A program made the position numbers and the translations under genes. From assembly GCA_016193385.1 (NCBI GenBank), contig JACPSF010000163.1:1-7115 (forward strand): 7,115 nucleotides of DNA, given 5' to 3'. Shown piece by piece: positions 126 to 7,115 of this stretch. The notes under the pieces are model-generated. The model did no database searches. It was not told the DNA's origin and saw only the letters and a program-made list of their open reading frames with translations. Source of the stretch: Deltaproteobacteria bacterium. Its GTDB lineage: Bacteria; Desulfobacterota_B; Binatia; UBA9968. Numbering within the stretch: the stretch's first letter is position 1; each line of letters begins with the position of its first letter.

Positions 126-509
126 TTAAATGCGAAGCGCGAGATAGAAGATGGGAAACGAAAGCTTAGGAGTAGGGGGGAAGAATGTCCTTAGCTGCGC
201 GGCACTACGTAGAGTTCCTTCTGGCGCGAGGGCTTCTGCTGACAAGAGTCGCTCCAGCGTGAAGAACTGAGCCGGGGCGTTCCACGGAGATTGTGACGCT
301 TGGATGGAAAGCATATTGCGGCGGACCGACTTGCAAACGTCTGCTTTGGTCTCGCCGCAAGGGTCTTTCTTCATCGTCGTCTCGCCCATCGACGCATGCG
401 TGCCCGAACTCTTCATGAAATCCCGGCCGGAACAGGCGTAAGCGATAGAGGTCAACACAAGGGAAAGGACGAGTGTTGCTACCGTTATGGTTCTTAGCTG
501 CTTAGTCAC
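126..509 (-). CDS. Small exported protein of unknown family
   Basis: The product is 127 residues if translation starts at the GTG at 507-509. The reading frame is open further upstream, to an ATG at 651-653, but the extra residues are basic and low-quality and lie across a candidate sigma-54 promoter. The GTG places a classic signal peptide at the N-terminus: TKQLR, then a hydrophobic stretch at about residues 8-24, then AYA before Cys26 (signal peptidase I type AXA; it does not fit a strict lipobox). The mature part has three Cys (26, 51, 59) and several Met and His residues (M32, H38, M41, M46, M66), followed by a Pro-rich segment and an aromatic tail ending in YLALRI. I do not recognise the family. 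Met, His and Cys could mean metal binding in the periplasm, and the divergent CopD-like gene makes copper a reasonable guess, but that is inference. The ribosome-binding site is weak (AGGGAAG about 20 bases upstream), so the exact start is uncertain. Confidence 0.6.
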   Translation of the reverse strand: MTKQLRTITVATLVLSLVLTSIAYACSGRDFMKSSGTHASMGETTMKKDPCGETKADVCKSVRRNMLSIQASQSPWNAPAQFFTLERLLSAEALAPEGTLRSAAQLRTFFPPTPKLSFPIFYLALRI

Positions 510-624
510 GGGTAAATTTTTCTTTAACTTCCCTGGCCCTTCCCCTTCTAATACGATTGAGTGGGGCCGAAGACGACGTTTGCTCGGCAGGAGCCTGAGC
601 CGCCAATCTCGGAAGCGGGACTCC

Positions 625-640
625 TGCAAATAGCGTACCA
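625..640 (-). promoter_or_regulatory. Candidate sigma-54 (-24/-12) promoter for the small exported protein
   Basis: Read on the minus strand the site is TGGTACGCTATTTGCA. It matches 11 of the 12 defined positions of TGGCACGNNNNTTGCW, with the invariant GG and GC ten bases apart. Transcription would start near 613, giving a leader of about 100 bases before the GTG at 509. The site supports the short start over the long open frame. An enhancer-binding activator would be needed; none is encoded in the window. Confidence 0.6.
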
Positions 641-890
641 GGGCGTGCTCCACCCTCGCCTCTCGCCTGGAGATCGAGGGTAAAGTGAACGCAACGCTGC
701 GGTGCTCTTATCGATTCTGTTATTTTTCGGCGAGGGGGGAAATCAGCTTCCTTCCTACATTTTGGAACAAGCCAATTGTTTTTTCCTGTTTTGTGGAAGA
801 AGATGCGCACAAGCCGCCTCTTTTATTCGCTTGCGGATGTGGCGGGATGGGCTTATCTGGTAAGGCTGAGTAAATAAGGGGGGATCTTCA
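641..890. other. Divergent intergenic region upstream of the CopD-like gene
   Basis: The region lies between the sigma-54-like site of the leftward gene and the TTG start of the rightward membrane protein. Short open frames here (for example 685-873 plus, or the minus frame crossing 502-810) have no family resemblance, and I do not call them genes. I searched for a correctly spaced GG-N10-GC motif facing the CopD-like gene and found no convincing one, nor a clear sigma-70 promoter. Confidence 0.4.
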
Positions 891-1400
891 TTGCATGCTA
901 TTTACCTGTTTTCCGTCTGGCTGCACATCCTGGCCGCTGCGGTCTGGATTGGGGGCATGATTTTTTTGTCCGTGATCCTGCTCCCTGCGATCCGGCGCCC
1001 GGAATTCAGAACCGCCGCGCCCCTGCTAGTGCATTTCTCCGGTGTTCGTTTTCGCTGGGTCGGTTGGCTGTGTCTGGTTGTTTTGGTTTTGACCGGAGTC
1101 TTCAATTTGATTTATCGTGGGGTCACGTGGGAAGATCTCGGGATTGGAGACTTCTGGAGAAGCCAATTCGGCGTAATCCTCAGCACGAAGCTGATCCTGG
1201 TAGTTGTAGTGCTTCTCCTCAGCATCCTGCACGATTTTTTCATCGGGCCGAAGGCCTCCGCTCTCGGGCGGACCAGTCCCGGATCTCCTGACGCGATGCG
1301 CTTCCGGCGCTACGCTAGCTGGCTCGGTCGGGTTAACCTTTTCCTGGCGCTGGTCATAGTGGCATTGGGGGTCATGCTGGTGCGCGGCGCTCTTTGGTGA
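891..1400 (+). CDS. CopD-like four-helix membrane protein
   Basis: The product is 169 residues with four predicted transmembrane helices at about 4-31, 56-76, 93-116 and 146-166. The first helix carries WLHILAAAVWIGG, the signature of CopD-type (copper resistance D domain) and related inner-membrane proteins. His12 in that motif and His114 in the LHDF segment after helix 3 are the obvious candidates for metal or heme ligands. Family members are linked to copper handling, but biochemical roles of the short, stand-alone versions are poorly known, so copper transport is inferred. The start is a TTG at 891. It is chosen because GGGGGGA lies six to seven bases upstream (878-884) and the protein begins directly with the first helix; there is no better ATG. 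The small exported protein is divergent upstream, and a radical SAM gene follows 222 bases downstream on the same strand, possibly co-transcribed. Confidence 0.8.
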   Translation: MHAIYLFSVWLHILAAAVWIGGMIFLSVILLPAIRRPEFRTAAPLLVHFSGVRFRWVGWLCLVVLVLTGVFNLIYRGVTWEDLGIGDFWRSQFGVILSTKLILVVVVLLLSILHDFFIGPKASALGRTSPGSPDAMRFRRYASWLGRVNLFLALVIVALGVMLVRGALW

Positions 1401-1622
1401 GTTGATCTCTAAAGGAGACCACGAAATTTTAGCATAGACATTGCCCCAGGAAACGATCAACGACGCCCAGGTTTTCCAAAAGATGAGAATTGACAAGTTG
1501 GAATTTCTTAAAAAAAGAAAACTGCGATGGCGAAGCTTCCTTGGTGCAGGAAAATTCAACAAAAACTGGCGTCCGGCTTGCGGCACGCTTCTTGCCTGCA
1601 GTTTCGGTGATGGGGAGGGGCT
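1401..1622 (+). other. Gap between CopD-like and radical SAM genes
   Basis: The gap starts with AGGAG (1413-1417), twelve bases after the CopD-like stop, but no start codon at a proper distance follows it. The rest is A-rich around 1500-1525 and holds the doubtful small ORF. No terminator or confident promoter was seen, so co-transcription of the flanking genes is possible. Confidence 0.35.
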
Positions 1623-1626
1623 ATGA
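1441..1626 (+). CDS. Doubtful small ORF abutting the radical SAM gene
   Basis: This is an open frame of 61 codons from a TTG at 1441, or 47 codons from an ATG at 1483. Its TGA stop overlaps the ATG of the radical SAM gene (ATGA at 1623-1626), the usual sign of translational coupling. The peptide is rich in Lys and Arg and ends with a segment holding two Cys (CGTLLAC). Neither start has a convincing ribosome-binding site, and I recognise no family. It could be a chance frame in the leader of the radical SAM gene, or a small peptide coupled to it. If real, it would be worth testing as a substrate of the SPASM enzyme. Confidence 0.2.
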   Translation: MPQETINDAQVFQKMRIDKLEFLKKRKLRWRSFLGAGKFNKNWRPACGTLLACSFGDGEGL

Positions 1627-2747
1627 AGGCTGCAGGTAATGGCAACGCAGGCGCGAAAAACCGTTTTCTCTATTCCGATGCGCCGTTTCTCGTTTACTGG
1701 GAGGTCACGCGGGCTTGCGAACTCGCTTGTCTTCACTGCCGGGCAGAAGCTAACGCGCAGAGAGATCCGCAGGAATTGAGCACCGATGAGTGCCGTCGGG
1801 TGCTTGAGATGATAAACGGTTTTGGAGCGCGCGGACCCCACCTTGTGCTCACCGGAGGAAATCCGCTCAAGCGGCCGGATTTTTTTGATTTGCTGGAATA
1901 TGGGGCCAAGCTCCGTTTGCGCATGTCGGTAGCTCCGAGCGGAACGGAAGGCCTCACTGGGGATGTTCTCCGTGCGATTAAAAATACCGGCGTGGAGAGC
2001 ATATCTCTCAGCCTGGATGGATCGTCGGCCGAAAGACACGACAGCTTTCGCGGCGTTCCGGGATGCTTTGCCTGGACGGTCCGAGCGGCTCAAGCCGCCC
2101 ACGCCGAAGGGCTTCACTTGCAGATCAATACCTTGGTTACGGGGGAGACAGAGGAGAATTTGCCGGAAATTTATCAGTTGGTGCGCGGCCTCAGCCCTAT
2201 GCGCTGGAGTCTTTTTTTCCTAGTGGGCGTGGGCAGAGGCCGGGCTCTGCAGGCGGTCCCCGCGCAGCGGTGCGAGGACCTTCTCCATTGGCTCTACGAT
2301 CTCTCCAGGCGAACCCCATTTGCCATTGCGACCACTGAAGCGCCTCACTTCCGCCGGGTGGCTCTAACCCGGATGCGCTCGGAAGGGATACCCCTCAGCA
2401 AAATTCGGGAGACGCCCGTGGGAAGAGGATTCGGCATTCGCGACGGCAACGGCATCATGTTCATATCGCATACGGGAGACGTTTATCCTTCAGGGTTTCT
2501 TCCCATCGTGGCCGGGAGTGTGCGGAGTTCCGATCTCGTGAAGATCTATCGCGAATCGGAGGTTTTCGGAAGGATCCGCTCTACGAGTCAGTTCGGAGGT
2601 AGGTGCGGGCTCTGTGAGTTCAAAGAGATCTGCGGTGGCTCGCGGGCGAGGGCGTATGCGGGCCATGGTGACTTCCTGGCCGAAGATCCTGCCTGCAATT
2701 ACGAGCCCGGAAAGTATCGGGCCCCCGGAAGGCCCCTGCTGATATGA
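1623..2747 (+). CDS. Radical SAM/SPASM protein, TIGR04053 (BA_1875)-like
   Basis: The product is 374 residues, a cytosolic iron-sulfur enzyme. The radical SAM core begins at about residue 21 with the cluster motif CELACLHC (Cys32, Cys36, Cys39), which binds the 4Fe-4S cluster that cleaves S-adenosylmethionine. The usual GGEP motif is TGGNP here (77-81), and SLSLDG follows at about 128-133. The C-terminal SPASM domain holds the segment YPSGFLP (288-294) and Cys328, Cys331, Cys337 and Cys358 in the arrangement GRCGLCEFKEICGGSRARAYA, which should carry an auxiliary cluster. This layout resembles the TIGR04053 group and, more distantly, the heme-pathway enzymes AhbD and NirJ. The substrate is unknown, and no other heme-synthesis genes are visible. 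The start ATG at 1623 has GGGAGG four bases upstream (1613-1618). The gene converges on the QueD-like gene, with 71 bases between the stops. Confidence 0.88.
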   Translation: MKAAGNGNAGAKNRFLYSDAPFLVYWEVTRACELACLHCRAEANAQRDPQELSTDECRRVLEMINGFGARGPHLVLTGGNPLKRPDFFDLLEYGAKLRLRMSVAPSGTEGLTGDVLRAIKNTGVESISLSLDGSSAERHDSFRGVPGCFAWTVRAAQAAHAEGLHLQINTLVTGETEENLPEIYQLVRGLSPMRWSLFFLVGVGRGRALQAVPAQRCEDLLHWLYDLSRRTPFAIATTEAPHFRRVALTRMRSEGIPLSKIRETPVGRGFGIRDGNGIMFISHTGDVYPSGFLPIVAGSVRSSDLVKIYRESEVFGRIRSTSQFGGRCGLCEFKEICGGSRARAYAGHGDFLAEDPACNYEPGKYRAPGRPLLI

Positions 2748-2806
2748 GCGGGCTGGGCCGCCAGCATTCGACCTTGAGGCTTCGGCCCAAGCTCAGCCGA
2801 GCGGCT

Positions 2807-2849
2807 CACCTCGAAAGGTCACTGCCCTTCGTAATGACAGCTCGAGGTG
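2807..2849. terminator. Two-tier inverted repeat between convergent genes, possible bidirectional terminator
   Basis: The outer arms CACCTCGA (2807-2814) and TCGAGGTG (2842-2849) match perfectly over 8 bp. Inside them GTCA (2818-2821) pairs with TGAC (2835-2838), with symmetric three-base bulges and a 13-base loop. The structure overlaps the QueD-like stop codon (2819-2821) and lies 59 bases past the radical SAM stop. A second weaker stem, GGGCCG (2755-2760) with CGGCCC (2783-2788), precedes it. There is no T-tract on either side, so intrinsic termination is uncertain; it may instead stabilise mRNA 3' ends. Confidence 0.35.
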
Positions 2850-3199
2850 CAGGTTTCTTGCAGCGACACGCGCTTGAGGCCGGGGAGGCGGTTTTTTAAT
2901 TGCCCCCAGATCCATCGGGCAATATTTTCCGAGGTCGGATTTTCCAGTCCGTCGATCTGGTTCAGGTAACCGTCCTCAAGGTAATTTTCGAGCAGCGGAT
3001 CCATTGCCTGCTCGATGTCCTCATAATCGACCAACTCACCGGTTTGCTCCCGCGGGTTCACCTCTCCTTCAACCGTCACATCGACCCGAAAGCTGTGTTC
3101 ATGGGGACGAGTCGATCTATCCCCGGCCGGGGCATAAGGCAGCTTGTGGAGCGCGTTAAAGCTGAATTCTTTGACCAGCTCTATTTTCAATACGCTCAT
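2819..3199 (-). CDS. QueD/6-pyruvoyltetrahydropterin synthase-fold protein lacking canonical catalytic residues
   Basis: The product is 126 residues, close to the 120 or so of QueD, which makes 6-carboxytetrahydropterin from dihydroneopterin triphosphate for queuosine and other deazapurines. It aligns well end to end with E. coli QueD as I recall it: KEFSFNALHKLP, HEHSF, then GLENPTSE at 84-91 and ETCTSSC at 115-121. The zinc ligands His18, His33 and His35 are present, as is the substrate-anchoring Glu115. The catalytic Cys (Cys27 in E. coli) is replaced by Ser29, LHGH has become PHEH, and the catalytic Asp-His pair (LDHHYLN in E. coli) reads LEDGYLN (Glu75, Asp76). Normal QueD activity is therefore doubtful, and an altered reaction or a binding role is possible. 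The start is the ATG at 3197-3199, with GGAGGG six bases upstream; an upstream in-frame ATG at 3253 would overlap the preceding gene. It is the second gene of an operon with the membrane protein ending at 3226. Confidence 0.82.
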   Translation of the reverse strand: MSVLKIELVKEFSFNALHKLPYAPAGDRSTRPHEHSFRVDVTVEGEVNPREQTGELVDYEDIEQAMDPLLENYLEDGYLNQIDGLENPTSENIARWIWGQLKNRLPGLKRVSLQETCTSSCHYEGQ

Positions 3200-3225
3200 G
3201 ACGGCCCTCCGAGGGGCATCCATCT

Positions 3226-3501
3226 CTAAGAAGGTGGAGATTCGCTTAGACACCTCTCATGGCAGCCCCTTCTTTCCGGCCATAGACTGCAGTCCCTGAC
3301 ACGCAGGATCGGCTTTCCGAGCGTCGAGGAAAACGCCGCGTGGCGAGCGTCAACGTTCACCTCTGCCAACGTCCTCTCTTCAGGGCATGTTAGGACTCTT
3401 TTTTTACGATAGCGTTGAAACGTATGGGCGGCGACGGGGAAAAATACATAGATCGTCGCTAGCCCGACGATAGCAACTACCGTAAGCCACGGAGCAATCA
3501 T
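3226..3501 (-). CDS. Single-helix membrane protein with conserved-looking Cys pattern, unknown function
   Basis: The product is 91 residues. One transmembrane helix spans about residues 4-26 and is followed by a basic stretch (RYRKKR), so the C-terminal part should lie in the cytoplasm. That part holds four Cys: Cys39 in LTCPEE, Cys71 in DCSLWPERRGC, then Cys80 and Cys84 (CHERC), plus His residues. This could be a small zinc or iron-sulfur site. The look of the sequence (TCPE, then VDARHAA, then CSLWPER) suggests a conserved small family rather than a chance frame, but I cannot name it. The ATG at 3499-3501 has a near-perfect ribosome-binding site (AAGGAGG, ending about six bases before it). 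A candidate sigma-54 promoter lies upstream at 3555-3570. The QueD-like gene starts 26 bases after the stop, so both probably share one mRNA. Confidence 0.72.
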   Translation of the reverse strand: MIAPWLTVVAIVGLATIYVFFPVAAHTFQRYRKKRVLTCPEERTLAEVNVDARHAAFSSTLGKPILRVRDCSLWPERRGCHERCLSESPPS

Positions 3502-3554
3502 GTTATCCTCCTTGAGCCCAAATGGGCCTCCTGTTCAGGCCATGAATTTATCCG

Positions 3555-3570
3555 AGCATAAAACGTGCCA
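3555..3570 (-). promoter_or_regulatory. Candidate sigma-54 promoter for the membrane protein/QueD operon
   Basis: Read on the minus strand the site is TGGCACGTTTTATGCT, 11 of 12 defined positions of TGGCACGNNNNTTGCW, with GG and GC ten bases apart. Transcription would start near 3545, giving a leader of about 44 bases before the ATG at 3501 and its strong ribosome-binding site. The same ATGCT form of the -12 element occurs at the universal stress protein gene. Confidence 0.7.
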
Positions 3571-3620
3571 AGGGAAATGCGAGGAAACACCTAGCAAGTT
3601 GCGGAAAAACTCCCTGTTTA

Positions 3621-3662
3621 CCCTTCGACGAACTCAGAGCCTGTCCTGAGTTTATCGAAGGG
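3621..3662. repeat. REP-like palindromic repeat, copy 1
   Basis: Arms of 17 bases, 3621-3637 (starting CCCTTCGAC) and 3646-3662 (ending TCGAAGGG), pair with two mismatches around an 8-base loop. The CCTTCGAC...GTCGAAGG core with CTCAGG/CCTGAG is a type of dispersed intergenic palindrome seen in many environmental bacterial genomes. It lies between the operon promoter at 3555-3570 and the universal stress protein 3' end. Confidence 0.7.
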
Positions 3663-3691
3663 GCGAACGGAGACCCCGTTGAAATCATTGA

Positions 3692-3800
3692 TGATTTTCC
3701 GGTCATGCTGAGCCCTTCGACAAACCAGCCGTTCGTCCTGAGCTTTGTCGAAGGATGCGGCTGGTTTGCTCAGGACAAGGCTCTCGAAGCATGAAAATCA
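3692..3800. repeat. Compound REP-like palindrome, copy 2, past the universal stress protein stop
   Basis: CCTTCGACAAA (3714-3724) pairs perfectly with TTTGTCGAAGG (3744-3754). Alternative pairings are AAACCAGCC (3722-3730) with GGCTGGTTT (3759-3767), and GTCCTGAGC (3735-3743) with GCTCAGGAC (3768-3776). The outermost TGATTTTC (3692-3699) pairs with GAAAATCA (3793-3800), and CATGCT (3704-3709) with AGCATG (3788-3793). The element starts 17 bases past the universal stress protein stop and could act as a transcript end or mRNA stabiliser. It shares its core with the copy at 3621-3662. Confidence 0.7.
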
Positions 3801-3816
3801 CTTTTCCCGCATCCTG

Positions 3817-4311
3817 TTAAGTGCCGGACGGGACCTTTTTTTCTTTGAAGAGCTCCGGCCGGATTGAAAGGACCGGGCAAATCGCTTCACGGACCACTTT
3901 TTCCGTGACGCTTCCGAGAAGCATGTGGGAGAGACCAGTTCGGCCGTGGGTGGAGATGACGATCAGATCTGCGGCTTCTTTAGCGGCTTCTTCTATGATG
4001 TTTTTATCCGGTTTGCCGAGCTCTACTTTTTCACGCGCCGCGATCAGGGGAAGGAGATCGGAGCAACTCTCCTCGAGGAAGCGCTTCAGAGCTTGGTGGT
4101 GCCGCTCCAGGAGCTGTTGCGGCGATCGAGAGGCGAAATCTGTTGTGTCCTCATCGGATCCCCTTTGGATTCGCGTGATCTCGTCATAGCTCACGACATG
4201 ATAAACGATGACTTCAGCGCCGCTGTCTCTGGCCAGTTCCAGAGCATAGCGGACCCCGGCGAGGGAGAGTTTTGACAGGTCGGTGGGCGCCAGAATTTTT
4301 CTGATCTCCAT
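3817..4311 (-). CDS. Universal stress protein (UspA family)
   Basis: The product is 164 residues, a single UspA domain with a short C-terminal extension. The N-terminus MEIRKILAPTDLSKLS gives the first beta strand and the conserved Asp of the nucleotide site. The C-terminal STHGRTGLSHMLLGSVTEKVV is the ATP-binding loop, with the G-9X-G(S/T) part intact; the first Gly of the classic G-2X-G is Ser here, as in many homologues. Such cytoplasmic proteins bind ATP or dimerise during starvation, redox or respiratory stress. The start is the ATG at 4309-4311, five bases after AGGAGG. A longer frame to 4389 would run through a candidate sigma-54 promoter and is rejected. The gene appears to be monocistronic, bounded by repeats on both sides. 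Confidence 0.93.
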   Translation of the reverse strand: MEIRKILAPTDLSKLSLAGVRYALELARDSGAEVIVYHVVSYDEITRIQRGSDEDTTDFASRSPQQLLERHHQALKRFLEESCSDLLPLIAAREKVELGKPDKNIIEEAAKEAADLIVISTHGRTGLSHMLLGSVTEKVVREAICPVLSIRPELFKEKKVPSGT

Positions 4312-4372
4312 TAGTGCCTCCTGTTTGGTGGGTCTCACTACCAACTCGGAATCCGATTTCTTCACCAAGGTG

Positions 4373-4388
4373 AGCATAACCCGTGCCA
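4373..4388 (-). promoter_or_regulatory. Candidate sigma-54 promoter for the universal stress protein gene
   Basis: Read on the minus strand the site is TGGCACGGGTTATGCT, 11 of 12 defined positions of TGGCACGNNNNTTGCW, with GG/GC spacing of ten. Transcription would start near 4361, about 50 bases ahead of the ATG at 4311. It is nearly the same as the site at 3555-3570, differing only in the four free spacer bases. Confidence 0.7.
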
Positions 4389-4405
4389 ATAAAATGGGAG
4401 GGAAC

Positions 4406-4552
4406 CTATAGTGAAGGAAAAAAGAAAATTACCATAATCACCCTGTCCTCCCTCAAATCCCCCTTTCTCCCCCTTTGGTAAAGGGGGATAGAGGGGGATT
4501 TAGGAGAGCGAGAGGGGATTTGATGTCAACTTATTTAACTCCGTCACTATAG
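4406..4552. mobile_element. MITE-like element with terminal and internal inverted repeats
   Basis: Perfect 9-bp terminal inverted repeats CTATAGTGA (4406-4414) and TCACTATAG (4544-4552) bound a 147-base segment with no coding capacity. Weaker similarity continues inward for about 15 bases. In the centre is a strong palindrome: 22-base arms at 4455-4476 and 4480-4501 (AAATCCCCC... and ...GGGGGATTT), two mismatches, 3-base loop. The outer TATA ends could be TA target duplications of an IS630/Tc1-mariner type element; that is inference. The element sits between the divergent universal stress protein and cupredoxin genes. Confidence 0.55.
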
Positions 4553-4594
4553 TAGCATCGGAGCCTTCTTTTCCGTTGGGAGCTGTCTCTAGCA

Positions 4595-4610
4595 GAGGCT
4601 GTCCCAAAAG
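4595..4610. mobile_element. Possible solo insertion-sequence end remnant
   Basis: GAGGCTGTCCCAAAAG resembles the terminal inverted repeats of several insertion-sequence groups that end in TTTTGGGACAGCCTC. No partner repeat or transposase is visible in the window, so it would be a relic. The match is from memory and short. Confidence 0.25.
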
Positions 4611-4714
4611 CTTTTTTACTCCGTTTGCGAATTTCATTTCCGGATTTTCTCAAATTTGGGAACCTCGACTTGGACCAAACTCAGTAAGTATTCAAAATAT
4701 TGATTAAAATCCTC

Positions 4715-4730
4715 TGGCATAAACATTGCT
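4715..4730 (+). promoter_or_regulatory. Candidate sigma-54 promoter for the cupredoxin/cytochrome cluster
   Basis: TGGCATAAACATTGCT matches 10 of 12 defined positions of TGGCACGNNNNTTGCW, with the GG and GC ten bases apart. The expected start of transcription, near 4740, leaves a leader of only about eight bases before the ATG at 4749. This fits the absence of a ribosome-binding site but is unusual for sigma-54 genes. A weak sigma-70 alternative is TTGGAC (4670-4675) with CAAAAT (4693-4698). Confidence 0.5.
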
Positions 4731-4748: not shown

Positions 4749-5492
4749 ATGACCAAACTAAGCCAAGTACTACCGCTAGGTTTATGTTTGGGGTTCACAA
4801 CTTTGTTGCTTTTACCCTCGCTCGCGCCGGCTTATGACGAGGTCGTTGTTAAAAACGGGGGAAGCATCAAAGGGAGCGTAAAACTGGAAGGGAAGGCGCC
4901 GAAGCTGCCCCCCCTGGAGATTTTCAAGTTCGAGCAGGTTTGCAAGAACGTCCCGGATGAAAGCCTGGTGGTAGGACCGACCCGGGGGATTCGGTATACG
5001 GTCGTGACGCTGGAAGGGATTACCAGGGGAAAAGCGGTCGAAAAAGAGGCTGTCCACGAGCTGGATAACGCCAAGTGTCGTTTTGTCCCCCACGTCCTGG
5101 TAGCGAGCGTCGGCCAATTTCTGTTGCTTAAGAACACAGATCCCATTCTCCACACGGCTCATGCTCGTTTCCAGGATGGCCAGCCGGATTTTAACGTGGG
5201 TCTTTATCCCGGAAGGGTAAGCCGCAAACCCCTCGTTAGCCCGGGCCTCGCGAAGATTCTCTGCGAAGTCCATCCTTGGATGGGCGCCTACATCGTCGTT
5301 ACCGAGCATCCTTATCATGCCGTCACAGATCTCTATGGGGAGTACCTCATCGGAGAGATCCCTCCGGGGAGTTATCGGCTCAAGGTGTGGCATGAAAAGT
5401 TGGGGACCCAAGAGAAGCAGGTTGAGATAAAGGAGGGGAAAACTTTTCAGGTTGACTTCACTTTTTCATCCGCCTCGGGGGCGAAAAAATGA
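4749..5492 (+). CDS. Exported cupredoxin-like protein with type 1 copper-site residues (first of a tandem pair)
   Basis: The product is 247 residues. A signal peptide covers residues 1-28 (hydrophobic core about 8-23, cleavage after APA). A beta-rich N-terminal part begins with GGSIKGSVKLEG and has two Cys (65 and 110) that may form a disulfide. The cupredoxin-like region follows: His135 in NTDPILH, then Cys172, His175 and Met178 in LCEVHPWM, a His/Cys/His/Met set expected to bind one blue-type copper. The C-terminus (about 195-240, GEYLIGEIPPGSYRLKVWHE) looks like a carboxypeptidase-regulatory-like beta-sandwich. A periplasmic role in electron transfer or copper binding is inferred. The start ATG at 4749 has no ribosome-binding site, but the signal peptide begins there and no better start exists. 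The stop overlaps the next gene's start (ATGA), so the two are translationally coupled. Confidence 0.83.
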   Translation: MTKLSQVLPLGLCLGFTTLLLLPSLAPAYDEVVVKNGGSIKGSVKLEGKAPKLPPLEIFKFEQVCKNVPDESLVVGPTRGIRYTVVTLEGITRGKAVEKEAVHELDNAKCRFVPHVLVASVGQFLLLKNTDPILHTAHARFQDGQPDFNVGLYPGRVSRKPLVSPGLAKILCEVHPWMGAYIVVTEHPYHAVTDLYGEYLIGEIPPGSYRLKVWHEKLGTQEKQVEIKEGKTFQVDFTFSSASGAKK

Positions 5493-6112
5493 AGCGGCAC
5501 GCGACGTGGGGAGCGAGCTTGCCGGCGATCCTCTTGCCGCTGCTTGTCTTTGGGGTTGAGGCGACCAAAACAGGTATCATCACAGGAACCATCGCTGTCG
5601 GCGGGAGGCCGACTGCGGACGCCGTCGTCTCGGTGGAAGGCCTGCCCCAGGAGGATCTCAAATCTCAAATCTCAAATCTCAAATCTAAGAAGGCGGTCAT
5701 GGACCAGCGCGAGACGAAATTCATCCCTCGCGTCCTTCCTGTCCTGGCTGGGACCACGGTAAGCTTCCCGAACAACGACAAAACCTGGCATAATGTCTTT
5801 TCCAAATCCGAATCGAAGCCATTCGACCTCGGTCTCTACCCGGGCGGCGAGACCCGGAGCGTGACCTTCGATAAGCCCGGCGTAGTAAGGATCCTCTGCA
5901 ATGTCCATCCGAGTATGGAAGCCTACATCGTGGTCAAGAGCCACCCTTACTTCGCCGCGCCGGACAAGCGTGGCAGTTATCGAATCAACGCTGTTCCTTT
6001 AGGGCAATACCGCCTGGAAGTCTGGCATCCGGATCTCGGTACGAAAGTGGTCTCTTTCAATCTCGTGCGCGAAGGGGAGGTGCTGACGCTCAATGTGGAT
6101 CTCAAAAAGTGA
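5489..6112 (+). CDS. Exported cupredoxin-like protein, second of a tandem pair, with an internal 7-bp repeat
   Basis: The product is 207 residues, a paralogue of the preceding protein and clearly alignable from FDLGLYPGG through CNVHPSMEAYIVV to YRLEVWHPDLGT. The signal peptide is at 1-25 (core 11-22). The copper-site set is His101 in NNDKTWH, then Cys137, His140 and Met143 in LCNVHPSM. A carboxypeptidase-regulatory-like beta domain ends the protein. Residues 57-66 (LKSQISNLKS) are encoded by a 7-bp tandem repeat and sit in a linker between the N-terminal beta segment and the copper domain. A change by one repeat unit would shift the frame and remove the copper site. A periplasmic electron-transfer or copper-binding role is inferred, and the pair with its different spacing around the site may act together. 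The start overlaps the upstream stop by four bases. Confidence 0.83.
   Translation: MKRHATWGASLPAILLPLLVFGVEATKTGIITGTIAVGGRPTADAVVSVEGLPQEDLKSQISNLKSKKAVMDQRETKFIPRVLPVLAGTTVSFPNNDKTWHNVFSKSESKPFDLGLYPGGETRSVTFDKPGVVRILCNVHPSMEAYIVVKSHPYFAAPDKRGSYRINAVPLGQYRLEVWHPDLGTKVVSFNLVREGEVLTLNVDLKK
5655..5686 (+). repeat. Heptanucleotide tandem repeat (ATCTCAA, 4.6 copies) inside a cupredoxin gene
   Basis: Four complete ATCTCAA units and a partial ATCT run without mismatch from 5655 to 5686. Because seven is not a multiple of three, gain or loss of one unit changes the frame; three units restore it. It is the only perfect short tandem array in the window. Confidence 0.9.
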
Positions 6113-6392
6113 AATCGGAAACGTAAAAGACAGGAGAAGCAACCCGGAAGCCTTGACCAGAGAGTTGGCACCTATAACGGCGCAGGAGAGGAAAGTCCTG
6201 GGACTCATCGCCGAGGCGCTGACCAATAAGGAGATTGCGGTCGCGCTGGAGATCAGCCCTGCCACAGTGAAGAGGCATCTGGAGAACATCCTGCGAAAGC
6301 TGGAGCTAAAGAATCGCGTGGACGCCGCCATCTTCGCCGTGCGGAATGGCCACGCTCTCTCCAAGACGGGCCGCAACGGCGTAGCGGCGTAA
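6093..6392 (+). CDS. Stand-alone LuxR-type helix-turn-helix regulator
   Basis: The product is 99 residues. Nearly all of the recognisable part (about 28-85) is one GerE/LuxR DNA-binding domain: ITAQERKVLGLIAEALTNKEIA, then the recognition helix ISPATVKRHLENILRKL, and NRVDAAIFAV. No receiver or ligand domain precedes it, only about 25 polar residues, so its input is unknown. Input could come from a partner protein, or the protein may act on abundance alone. The ATG at 6093 overlaps the upstream gene by 20 bases and has AGGGGAGG twelve bases upstream (6073-6080), a long spacing. In-frame TTG codons at 6153 or 6165 would remove most of the polar leader and cannot be excluded. It may control the cupredoxin genes or the downstream cytochrome. 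Confidence 0.82.
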   Translation: MWISKSEIGNVKDRRSNPEALTRELAPITAQERKVLGLIAEALTNKEIAVALEISPATVKRHLENILRKLELKNRVDAAIFAVRNGHALSKTGRNGVAA

Positions 6393-6488: not shown

Positions 6489-7115
6489 ATGAAGCGAACG
6501 TTTGCGGCTGGCCTATTTTTCGCGCTCATTTTTGGCTTTGCTAAGATTGTGACCTCTGCTGAAGGCCCTCCTGCCAAAGCCACCGCCGTTGGCAGCGAAG
6601 TCTGCAAGGCCTGCCACGCTCCCCAGTTCGAGAAATTCTCGAAAACCCAGATGGGGAAAATTTTCCTCTTCAATGCCCGCAACGATCTCGAGAAACAAGC
6701 TTGCGAGAGTTGCCACGGTCCGGGGAGCGATCATGTGGCTAAAGGAGGAGGAAAGGGCGTGGGCGGGCTCATCACGTTCGGTCCGAATTCGCCAGTGCCT
6801 GCCAAAGTGCAGAACGACACCTGCCTCCAGTGCCATCAGAAGGGAGTCCAGACGTACTGGCTGGCAGGCCCTCATGCCGGCCGTGGAATTGTTTGCACCA
6901 ACTGCCACACCATCATGGAAAAGACCACCGATCGCTTCCAGCTTGCCAAGGTCGATGACAAAACCGTCTTCTTCAACAAGCGGGCACAGATAGAGGTTTG
7001 TGGCCAGTGCCACCTGCAAAGGAAAGCCCAGCTCATGCGCTCCTCCCACATGCCACTGAGAGAAGGGAAGCTGACTTGCACCGACTGTCACAATCCACAC
7101 GGCACGCCGAATCCA
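6489..7115 (+). CDS. Multiheme c-type cytochrome, DmsE/MtrA-like (3' end beyond window)
   Basis: The first 209 residues are visible and the frame is open at the window edge. A signal peptide (1-24, cleavage after TSA) sends the protein to the periplasm. Six CXXCH heme-binding motifs follow: CKACH (39-43), CESCH (72-76), CLQCH (112-116), CTNCH (136-140), CGQCH (171-175) and CTDCH (197-201). Extra His residues that could serve as second axial ligands occur at 82, 129, 187 and 204. The openings GSEVCKACH and CESCHGPGS and the phrase TCTDCHNPHGT are typical of the DmsE/MtrA family of decaheme cytochromes, whose members carry electrons across the outer membrane inside a porin. That family is about 300-340 residues, so four more hemes would be expected downstream. 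The ATG has GGAGGG four bases upstream (6479-6484). A porin (MtrB-like) gene would be the expected neighbour past the edge. Confidence 0.92.
   Translation, partial: MKRTFAAGLFFALIFGFAKIVTSAEGPPAKATAVGSEVCKACHAPQFEKFSKTQMGKIFLFNARNDLEKQACESCHGPGSDHVAKGGGKGVGGLITFGPNSPVPAKVQNDTCLQCHQKGVQTYWLAGPHAGRGIVCTNCHTIMEKTTDRFQLAKVDDKTVFFNKRAQIEVCGQCHLQRKAQLMRSSHMPLREGKLTCTDCHNPHGTPNP

Follow-up and report, generated by a model that had tools for sequence, protein, structure and literature searches.

The subject of this report is a 7,115-nt stretch of DNA (contig JACPSF010000163.1 of assembly GCA_016193385.1, from a Deltaproteobacteria bacterium of the class Binatia; hereafter the window, by which the whole stretch is meant), and in particular a set of predicted sigma-54 (RpoN) promoters within it. 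An earlier note had reported four such sites, one for each of four transcription units, and had linked them into a probable RpoN regulon. All four, at 625-640, 3555-3570, 4373-4388 and 4715-4730, are indeed present; they carry the GG-N10-GC core, match 11, 11, 11 and 10 of the 12 defined bases of the consensus used in that note and, as it had claimed, face the nearby starts of the genes named here EXP (511), MEM (3501), USP (4311) and CUP1 (4749). The list was incomplete, however, as a fifth site at 1581-1596 had been overlooked. With the core and at least 10 of the 12 defined bases as the criterion, a scan of the full window gives exactly five sites, all of which stand before gene starts and face nearby start codons:

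625-640, minus strand: predicted sigma-54 (-24/-12) promoter of EXP, TGGTACGCTATTTGCA, 11/12
1581-1596, plus strand: predicted sigma-54 promoter before the radical-SAM gene, CGGCACGCTTCTTGCC, 10/12, with GG-N10-GC
3555-3570, minus strand: predicted sigma-54 promoter of the MEM/QueD-like operon, TGGCACGTTTTATGCT, 11/12
4373-4388, minus strand: predicted sigma-54 promoter of USP, TGGCACGGGTTATGCT, 11/12
4715-4730, plus strand: predicted sigma-54 promoter of the cupredoxin/cytochrome cluster, TGGCATAAACATTGCT, 10/12

The genes of the window, with the short names used below, are the following:

126-511, minus strand: EXP, a small protein of unknown family (start codon GTG at 511) whose N-terminus resembles a signal peptide
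891-1400, plus strand: CopD-like membrane protein (PF05425)
1623-2747, plus strand: radical-SAM/SPASM protein (TIGR04053; next-best model the AhbD heme synthase, below its cut-off)
2819-3199, minus strand: QueD-like protein of the 6-pyruvoyl-tetrahydropterin synthase family (PF01242; below the QueD cut-off)
3226-3501, minus strand: MEM, a small membrane protein with a Cys-rich tail and no Pfam or NCBIfam family
3817-4311, minus strand: USP, a universal stress protein (PF00582)
4749-5492, plus strand: CUP1, an exported protein with a carboxypeptidase-regulatory-like domain, called 'plastocyanin' in some sources
5489-6112, plus strand: CUP2, a cupredoxin-like protein (PF00127; PF13620 below its cut-off)
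6093-6392, plus strand: small LuxR-type DNA-binding protein, overlapping the end of CUP2 (PF00196)
6489-7115, plus strand: multiheme c-type cytochrome, running off the window (nearest models DmsE/GSU2203 decaheme)

Pfam and NCBIfam scans of EXP gave no match, and homologues of it were found in 7 of 97 genomes. The CopD-like gene has no core site of its own with at least 10/12 bases in the window. From the end of the fifth site to the radical-SAM ATG at 1623 there are 26 nt, and the start codon of USP lies at 4311 rather than at 4389, the mechanical open reading frame call being too long. Transcription from sigma-54 promoters usually starts about 12 nt downstream of the -12 element, a rule that would give CUP1 a very short leader, with a predicted transcription start about 8 nt before the ATG; the distance from the start of the site to the ATG, 34 nt in the window, is 31-40 nt in 8/8 orthologues. 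In 1000 dinucleotide-preserving shuffles of the window the mean number of core sites with at least 10/12 bases was 0.47 and the maximum 4, so that five were reached in 0/1000. An Rfam search of the window gave no match at gathering scores.

RpoN and conservation of the promoters in relatives

To our knowledge the lineage is known only from metagenome-assembled genomes (MAGs), and the window proteins have their named relatives mostly among MAG entries for 'Deltaproteobacteria' and 'Candidatus Binatia'. The search for rpoN that the earlier note had proposed was positive in the relatives, where Sigma54_DBD was found in 9/9 MAGs (and in 4/14 control genomes), although this bears on the window organism by kinship only. 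The activator domain of the enhancer-binding proteins (EBPs) is likewise found in 9/9 related genomes, with 8 to 37 matches each, but since it also matches in 14/14 control genomes its bare presence in the relatives means little. We infer that the window organism itself has rpoN and the candidate EBP described below.

A strict form of the sigma-54 motif, TGGCAYRNNNNWTGCW, occurs 217 times in five relatives (25.0 Mb), against 18 occurrences of the reversed pattern and 16 of the pattern with one extra spacer base, which is an enrichment of 12-fold and 14-fold, respectively. Three of the five window sites fit this strict motif where 0.06 would be expected at the relatives' density (Poisson P 4e-5). 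The earlier note's impression of an unusual density is therefore borne out by three strict sites in 7.1 kb, but the density is not unique, as lists read by eye contain similar clusters (three strict sites within 7.1 kb) at three places in G007 and on one G001 contig, the latter being locus L001. As a separate observation, G007 carries strict sites before the genes of five small paralogues, 55-58 aa in length (contigs C107, C110 and C141).

Orthologous loci were collected in a scan of genome contigs in which 28 aligned CUP1 sequences served as the query; it gave 39 loci, the close ones being L001-L009 at 63-73% identity (titled as eight Deltaproteobacteria and one Verrucomicrobia, L005). The closest relative, L001, has the gene order EXP, CopD, radical SAM, MEM, CUP1-CUP2, without USP; USP is divergent from CUP1-CUP2 in L003, L007 and L008, the order CUP1-CUP2-LuxR-cytochrome recurs in L002, L005 and L009, and a LuxR-type gene follows CUP2 also in L002, L004, L005, L008 and L009. 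Compared with L001, the EXP site is identical at 15/16 positions (20-base flanks 3/20 and 6/20), the MEM site at 16/16 (flanks 5/20 and 4/20), the radical-SAM site at 16/16 (flanks 12/20 and 11/20) and the CUP1 site at 13/16. With radical SAM excepted, the 20-base flanks of the shared sites keep 2-6/20 in L001, and at EXP, MEM and CUP1 conservation is confined to the site itself.

The GG-N10-GC core stands before CUP1 in 8/8 orthologues with uncut upstream sequence (L001-L008), with at least 9/12 bases in 7/8, and sigma-54 sites precede USP in L003, L007 and L008 too. Among EXP homologues a site of at least 9/12 was found in 5/7, L001 included, and in the MEM family a site at -41 to -107 in 10/23 loci, paralogues included. 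This family (L247-L269) consists of small membrane proteins for which neither Pfam nor NCBIfam has a model. Remoter radical-SAM homologues have a scattered site match in 4/26. The conservation upstream of orthologues for which the earlier note had proposed to look is thus present at CUP1, USP and EXP, but weak for radical SAM, where it is confined to L001, and for MEM.

Tandem dyads upstream of the promoters

A comparison of upstream regions of CUP1 orthologues revealed a dyad, TTCTCAAATTTGGGAA at 4647-4662 of the window, that recurs at a fixed distance. Matches of at least 12/16 to this dyad lie within 200 nt upstream of 40/152 strict sites (window included) and downstream of 0. An iterated, symmetric matrix, trained on 149 promoters of the relatives with the window excluded, has the 16-bp consensus TTCYCA-N4-TGRGAA; of the 92 dyad pairs that it calls, 57 have a spacing of 30-32 bp. 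The spacing peaks at 31 bp (37 promoters at a score of at least 18, with 16 at 30 and 10 at 32), and relative to the -24 element the dyads are concentrated about 55 and about 86 nt upstream. Pairs with a total score of at least 14 were found upstream of 62/149 sigma-54 promoters of the relatives, against 0 downstream and 0-2 in Markov shuffles. By genome, pairs were found at 23/46 promoters used in G001 (of 48 strict sites), 14/31 in G003 (of 73), 7/28 in G004 (of 29), 14/40 in G007 (of 42), 2/2 in G008 (of 25) and 1/1 in each of G002 and G005; two further sites were dropped because their upstream sequence was too short. The promoters scored with this first matrix are those on which it had been trained. 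The held-out matrices were derived from two genomes and applied to a different two, and they found pairs upstream in 20/68 and 36/77, downstream in 0 and in shuffles in 0-3.

Within the window only three pairs score 20 or more, at 752, 1474 and 4616, where 0.01 would be expected, and each of them lies upstream of a sigma-54 site:

752-798, no strand: predicted tandem dyad enhancer before EXP (752-767 and 783-798, 31 bp apart)
1474-1552, no strand: three dyads before the radical-SAM promoter (1474-1489, 1505-1520 and 1537-1552; 31 and 32 bp apart)
4616-4662, no strand: predicted tandem dyad enhancer between USP and CUP1 (4616-4631 and 4647-4662, 31 bp apart)

The EXP dyads lie 127 and 158 nt upstream of the -24 element, and their pair score of 23.7 was equalled in 0/400 Markov shuffles; both held-out matrices find this pair. 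The radical-SAM array has pair scores of 25.4 and 19.6, and the CUP1 array one of 25.6. The dyad at 4647-4662 matches the dyad consensus at 16/16 positions, a consensus that was partly read from it; since the seed came from inspection by eye of sequences upstream of CUP1, this dyad among them, CUP1 is not an independent test, while EXP and radical SAM are.

The arrays recur in the relatives. Of the CUP1 orthologues 7/8 have a pair, with one dyad at -85 to -89 and the other at -54 to -58, L001 has a three-dyad array (1048/1079/1110) before its radical-SAM gene too, and strong pairs precede the EXP homologues of L212, L213, L214 and L216. No dyad pair was found at MEM in L001, and 3/7 other MEM homologues scored have one (L252, L256 and L268). 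In L003, L007 and L008 the array is common to CUP1 and USP, and from the start of its nearer dyad to the USP -24 element there are 109, 67 and 81 nt, respectively. The corresponding distances in the window are 243 and 274 nt, and between the USP promoter and the CUP1 enhancer sits a putative 147-nt insert at 4406-4552, resembling a miniature inverted-repeat transposable element, whose CTATAGTGA ends are inverted and which has a further inverted repeat of 29 nt inside it. It had no match in the loci fetched around EBP genes, and a 4400-4560 query against plasmids returned nothing. Without the putative insert the distances would be 96 and 127 nt, of which 96 falls in the relatives' range for the nearer USP dyad; these recomputed distances rule out that its removal restores the exact spacing of L008.

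A candidate activator

Among the EBP genes of G001, G003 and G007, three whose products have a helix-turn-helix (HTH) of the form ...SLS(S/T)LYRK... adjoin dyad arrays. The likely activator, judged from such neighbourhoods, is this conserved family with the HTH ...EAAKLLDISLSSLYRKIEELGI, encoded beside enhancers of this kind. A pair scoring at least 15 lies within 1.5 kb at 9/13 loci of the candidate family against 1/36 other EBPs (P 3e-6, duplicates removed), a comparison in which the family was defined after three members had been seen beside dyads (in G001 and G007) and all 36 of the other EBPs belong to G001, G003 or G007. The duplicates are L325, identical to L340, and L312, identical to L350; L342, which has a frameshift after its HTH, is not among the other EBPs. 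With a following sigma-54 site of at least 9/12 required as well, the counts are 6/13 against 0/36 (P 1e-4), and the ten loci from other genomes, which lie outside the definition of the family, give 6/10 against 1/36 (P 1e-4). What ties the family to the dyads is linkage, which is not proof of binding, and the related genomes are not independent of one another.

Candidate members carry the domains PF00158 and PF02954; the G001 copy has a receiver domain, and the G002 copy is a bare AAA+ domain plus HTH. The neighbour of the EBP gene in L343 and L346 encodes an APH/AAA_33 protein, and four more neighbours appear alike by eye. In G011 the EBP gene adjoins a universal stress gene with dyads and a sigma-54 site, whose product is 54% identical to the window USP; since this is no closer than the USPs of L003 and L007 (57-58% identity), it indicates kinship and not strict orthology. 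As a separate observation, three genomes (loci L094, L126 and L201) encode a receiver-histidine kinase hybrid downstream of a strict sigma-54 site, and the coordinates place it near an EBP gene.

Content and proposed mechanism of the putative regulon

Domain scans covered 20 of 61 dyad-positive targets, chosen by us from the larger half-site class. They comprise PFOR, a nitrogenase-type oxidoreductase, a molybdopterin oxidoreductase, UbiD and two FAD subunits of molybdenum hydroxylases; a NiFe-hydrogenase small subunit, a cytochrome c7, two 4Fe-4S proteins and a beta-propeller protein with a weak cytochrome-c match; and a hemerythrin, an OsmC, a PaaA-like protein, a TctC receptor, a hydantoinase and a ThiS-like protein, while three targets had no match or fell in an unknown family. 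A rubrerythrin-like target lies just below its family cut-off, and two others we take from their sequence, without a domain scan, to be CBS-domain and Hsp20-like proteins. To these the window would add cupredoxins, a multiheme cytochrome and a heme-synthase-like radical-SAM protein. We read the regulon as one of mainly redox and low-oxygen physiology.

It is likely, in our view, that the five sites are genuine RpoN promoters, three of them under shared EBP dyad enhancers as part of a redox/low-oxygen regulon; the window is very probably a real and largely co-regulated cluster of redox genes. The promoters, their conservation, the dyads and their spacing, and the linkage to one EBP family can be read from the DNA itself, and from these we infer the binding of the EBP, the looping and the signal. 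In this mechanism the EBP would bind two or three 16-bp dyads, TTCYCA-N4-TGRGAA, placed 31 bp (three helical turns) apart at EXP, radical SAM and CUP1, and the dyad-bound EBP would contact the waiting sigma-54 polymerase through a DNA loop and open the promoter. Divergent USP and CUP1 would use one enhancer in the relatives, and in the window, with the putative insert between them, the longer distance would be of a kind that enhancers tolerate. The single regulon proposed in the earlier note would accordingly take in EXP, radical SAM and CUP1 by way of the shared tandem dyads and USP through the relatives only, but it does not extend on this evidence to the MEM/QueD-like operon, which is probably sigma-54 dependent but under another EBP.

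A broader proposal is that one EBP family, receiver-bearing or bare and PspF-like AAA+, acts as master switch over a sigma-54 hypoxia/redox regulon specific to the clade, which we offer as speculation more likely wrong than right. The regulon would resemble those of the DosR or FNR type; with the same doubt, the switch might govern universal stress, CBS, Hsp20 and rubrerythrin-like proteins, hemerythrin, hydrogenase and cytochromes, filling an FNR- or DosR-like role by means of sigma-54 and dyads.

Contrary evidence and alternative explanations

Several results weigh against a shared sigma-54 regulon. In the window itself neither MEM nor USP has a dyad pair within 220 nt. The MEM site is missing in the homologues next-nearest after L001 (L248-L251), and the radical-SAM site in orthologues of about 70% (L217-L219, 68-70% identity), so that it is conserved only in L001, where moreover a dispersed repeat separates the radical-SAM array from the promoter, at a distance of 211-273 nt. 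The EXP promoter of L001 is without a strong pair (7.7, P 0.035), and the CUP1 site of L006 reaches only 8/12, as read by eye, and is without dyads. Six further strict sites of G008 yielded one with a pair. A single dyad type for all pairs is ruled out, as 12/62 are nearer TTYGCA by a rule of our own, and since the dyads vary in detail more than one EBP may be involved.

One alternative is that the sigma-54 promoters are true but the genes are not co-regulated, each having its own EBP, with the dyads a common taste of many related EBPs in the clade. We think this a possible reading but a doubtful one. It gains from the 8-37 EBP-domain matches per relative, from the existence of at least two dyad half-site types, from MEM without dyads and from the catabolic targets (UbiD, TctC) that stand among the dyad-positive genes besides the redox genes; against it, the three arrays of the window have the same spacing and all score highly under one matrix, and one EBP family is far more often linked to dyads than the others are (9/13 against 1/36).

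It is improbable that the dyads serve a regulator of another kind, for example of the OmpR or LuxR type, at other promoters, with the nearness of sigma-54 sites incidental. The cluster does encode a small LuxR-type protein, and in 207 kb around EBP genes only two of the six pairs scoring at least 20 are followed by a core site of at least 9/12, the other four being without one; yet 62/149 sigma-54 sites have pairs upstream and none has any downstream, six strong pairs in 207 kb are few, and a sigma-70 promoter scan of the window gave 2 matches against 3.0 expected. Chance, by which a short degenerate motif in a GC-moderate window would have yielded four to five matches picked by eye, is scarcely credible, for although the much less telling consensus without the core (at most three mismatches) gives only a modest excess of 17 matches over 9.95 expected, equalled in 2/200 shuffles, the five core sites never arose in shuffles, the site-confined conservation at EXP, MEM and CUP1 (with the core before CUP1 in 8/8 orthologues) already contradicts it, and the enhancer arrays are independent evidence.

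Comparison with known systems

Tandem sites before sigma-54 promoters are familiar, and the architecture found here is a known one, whereas the motif, the regulon and the candidate EBP look new. The enhancer site of NifA is TGT-N10-ACA, and the dyad of the window, TTC-N10-GAA, shares with such NifA/AnfA-type sites the 3-N10-3 geometry of a 16-bp dyad. The two main NtrC sites of glnA are about 32 bp apart. In enteric bacteria, according to the passages cited here, this tandem pair of activator sites upstream of a -24/-12 promoter, about 90 and about 140 bp from the start, acts by looping (Cells 2020, PMC7408454), and the paired tandem sites before the promoters of the window are alike in this respect. 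Unlike in the NtrC system, the dyad has another sequence, the candidate EBPs fall below the NtrC cut-off, and the 20 scanned targets are mostly redox or catabolic and not nitrogen-assimilation genes, so that an NtrC regulon is not what we find.

NmpR of Myxococcus xanthus, an NtrC-like protein, is described in the cited part of its report as using two dyads per promoter, mostly with 14-15 nt between them (about 30 bp start to start), in an oxygen-utilisation regulon (PMC11841059). Its dyad in that part, GCGCA-N5-TGCGC, differs from TTCYCA-N4-TGRGAA with 15 bp between, and a Myxococcaceae genome (G100) gave pairs scoring at least 14 at 0/4 sites. The RpoN/EBP regulome of Desulfovibrio vulgaris, an EBP-rich sigma-54 network reconstructed from footprints, includes in two passages of its description the motifs yGTCA-N6-TGACr and an AT-rich palindrome, which differ from the window dyad (PMC4641369). 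In the test of wider kinship that included G100 and examined 30 of 70 strict sites, pairs were found at 0/6 sites in Candidatus Binatia G021, 0/7 in Syntrophobacter G023, 0/7 in Acidobacteria G101 and 1/6 in G017; the Rokubacteria genome G099 has no strict sigma-54 site. A literature search, with subscription papers outside its scope, found neither the string TTC-N10-GAA nor TTCN10GAA, and no paper combining 'Binatota' and 'sigma-54', although the group may bear other names. What began as a guess read by eye has become a testable regulon, for which there are now a defined enhancer code, a list of 62 promoters in relatives as candidate targets, and a candidate activator amenable to in vitro work.

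Other features of the locus

The window contains a dispersed repeat at 3591-3826 with TTGCGGAAAAA-type ends, pieces of which occur in relatives, for example in L001 at 1133-1277 (before radical SAM), L324, L326, L117 and L171. The radical-SAM gene of L001 (1360-2423) aligns as two segments, covering residues 1-279 and residues 296-373, that lie in different frames, through a real frameshift or an assembly error. Inside CUP2, at 5655-5686 of the window, lies a perfect tandem repeat of the 7-bp unit ATCTCAA in 4.6 copies.

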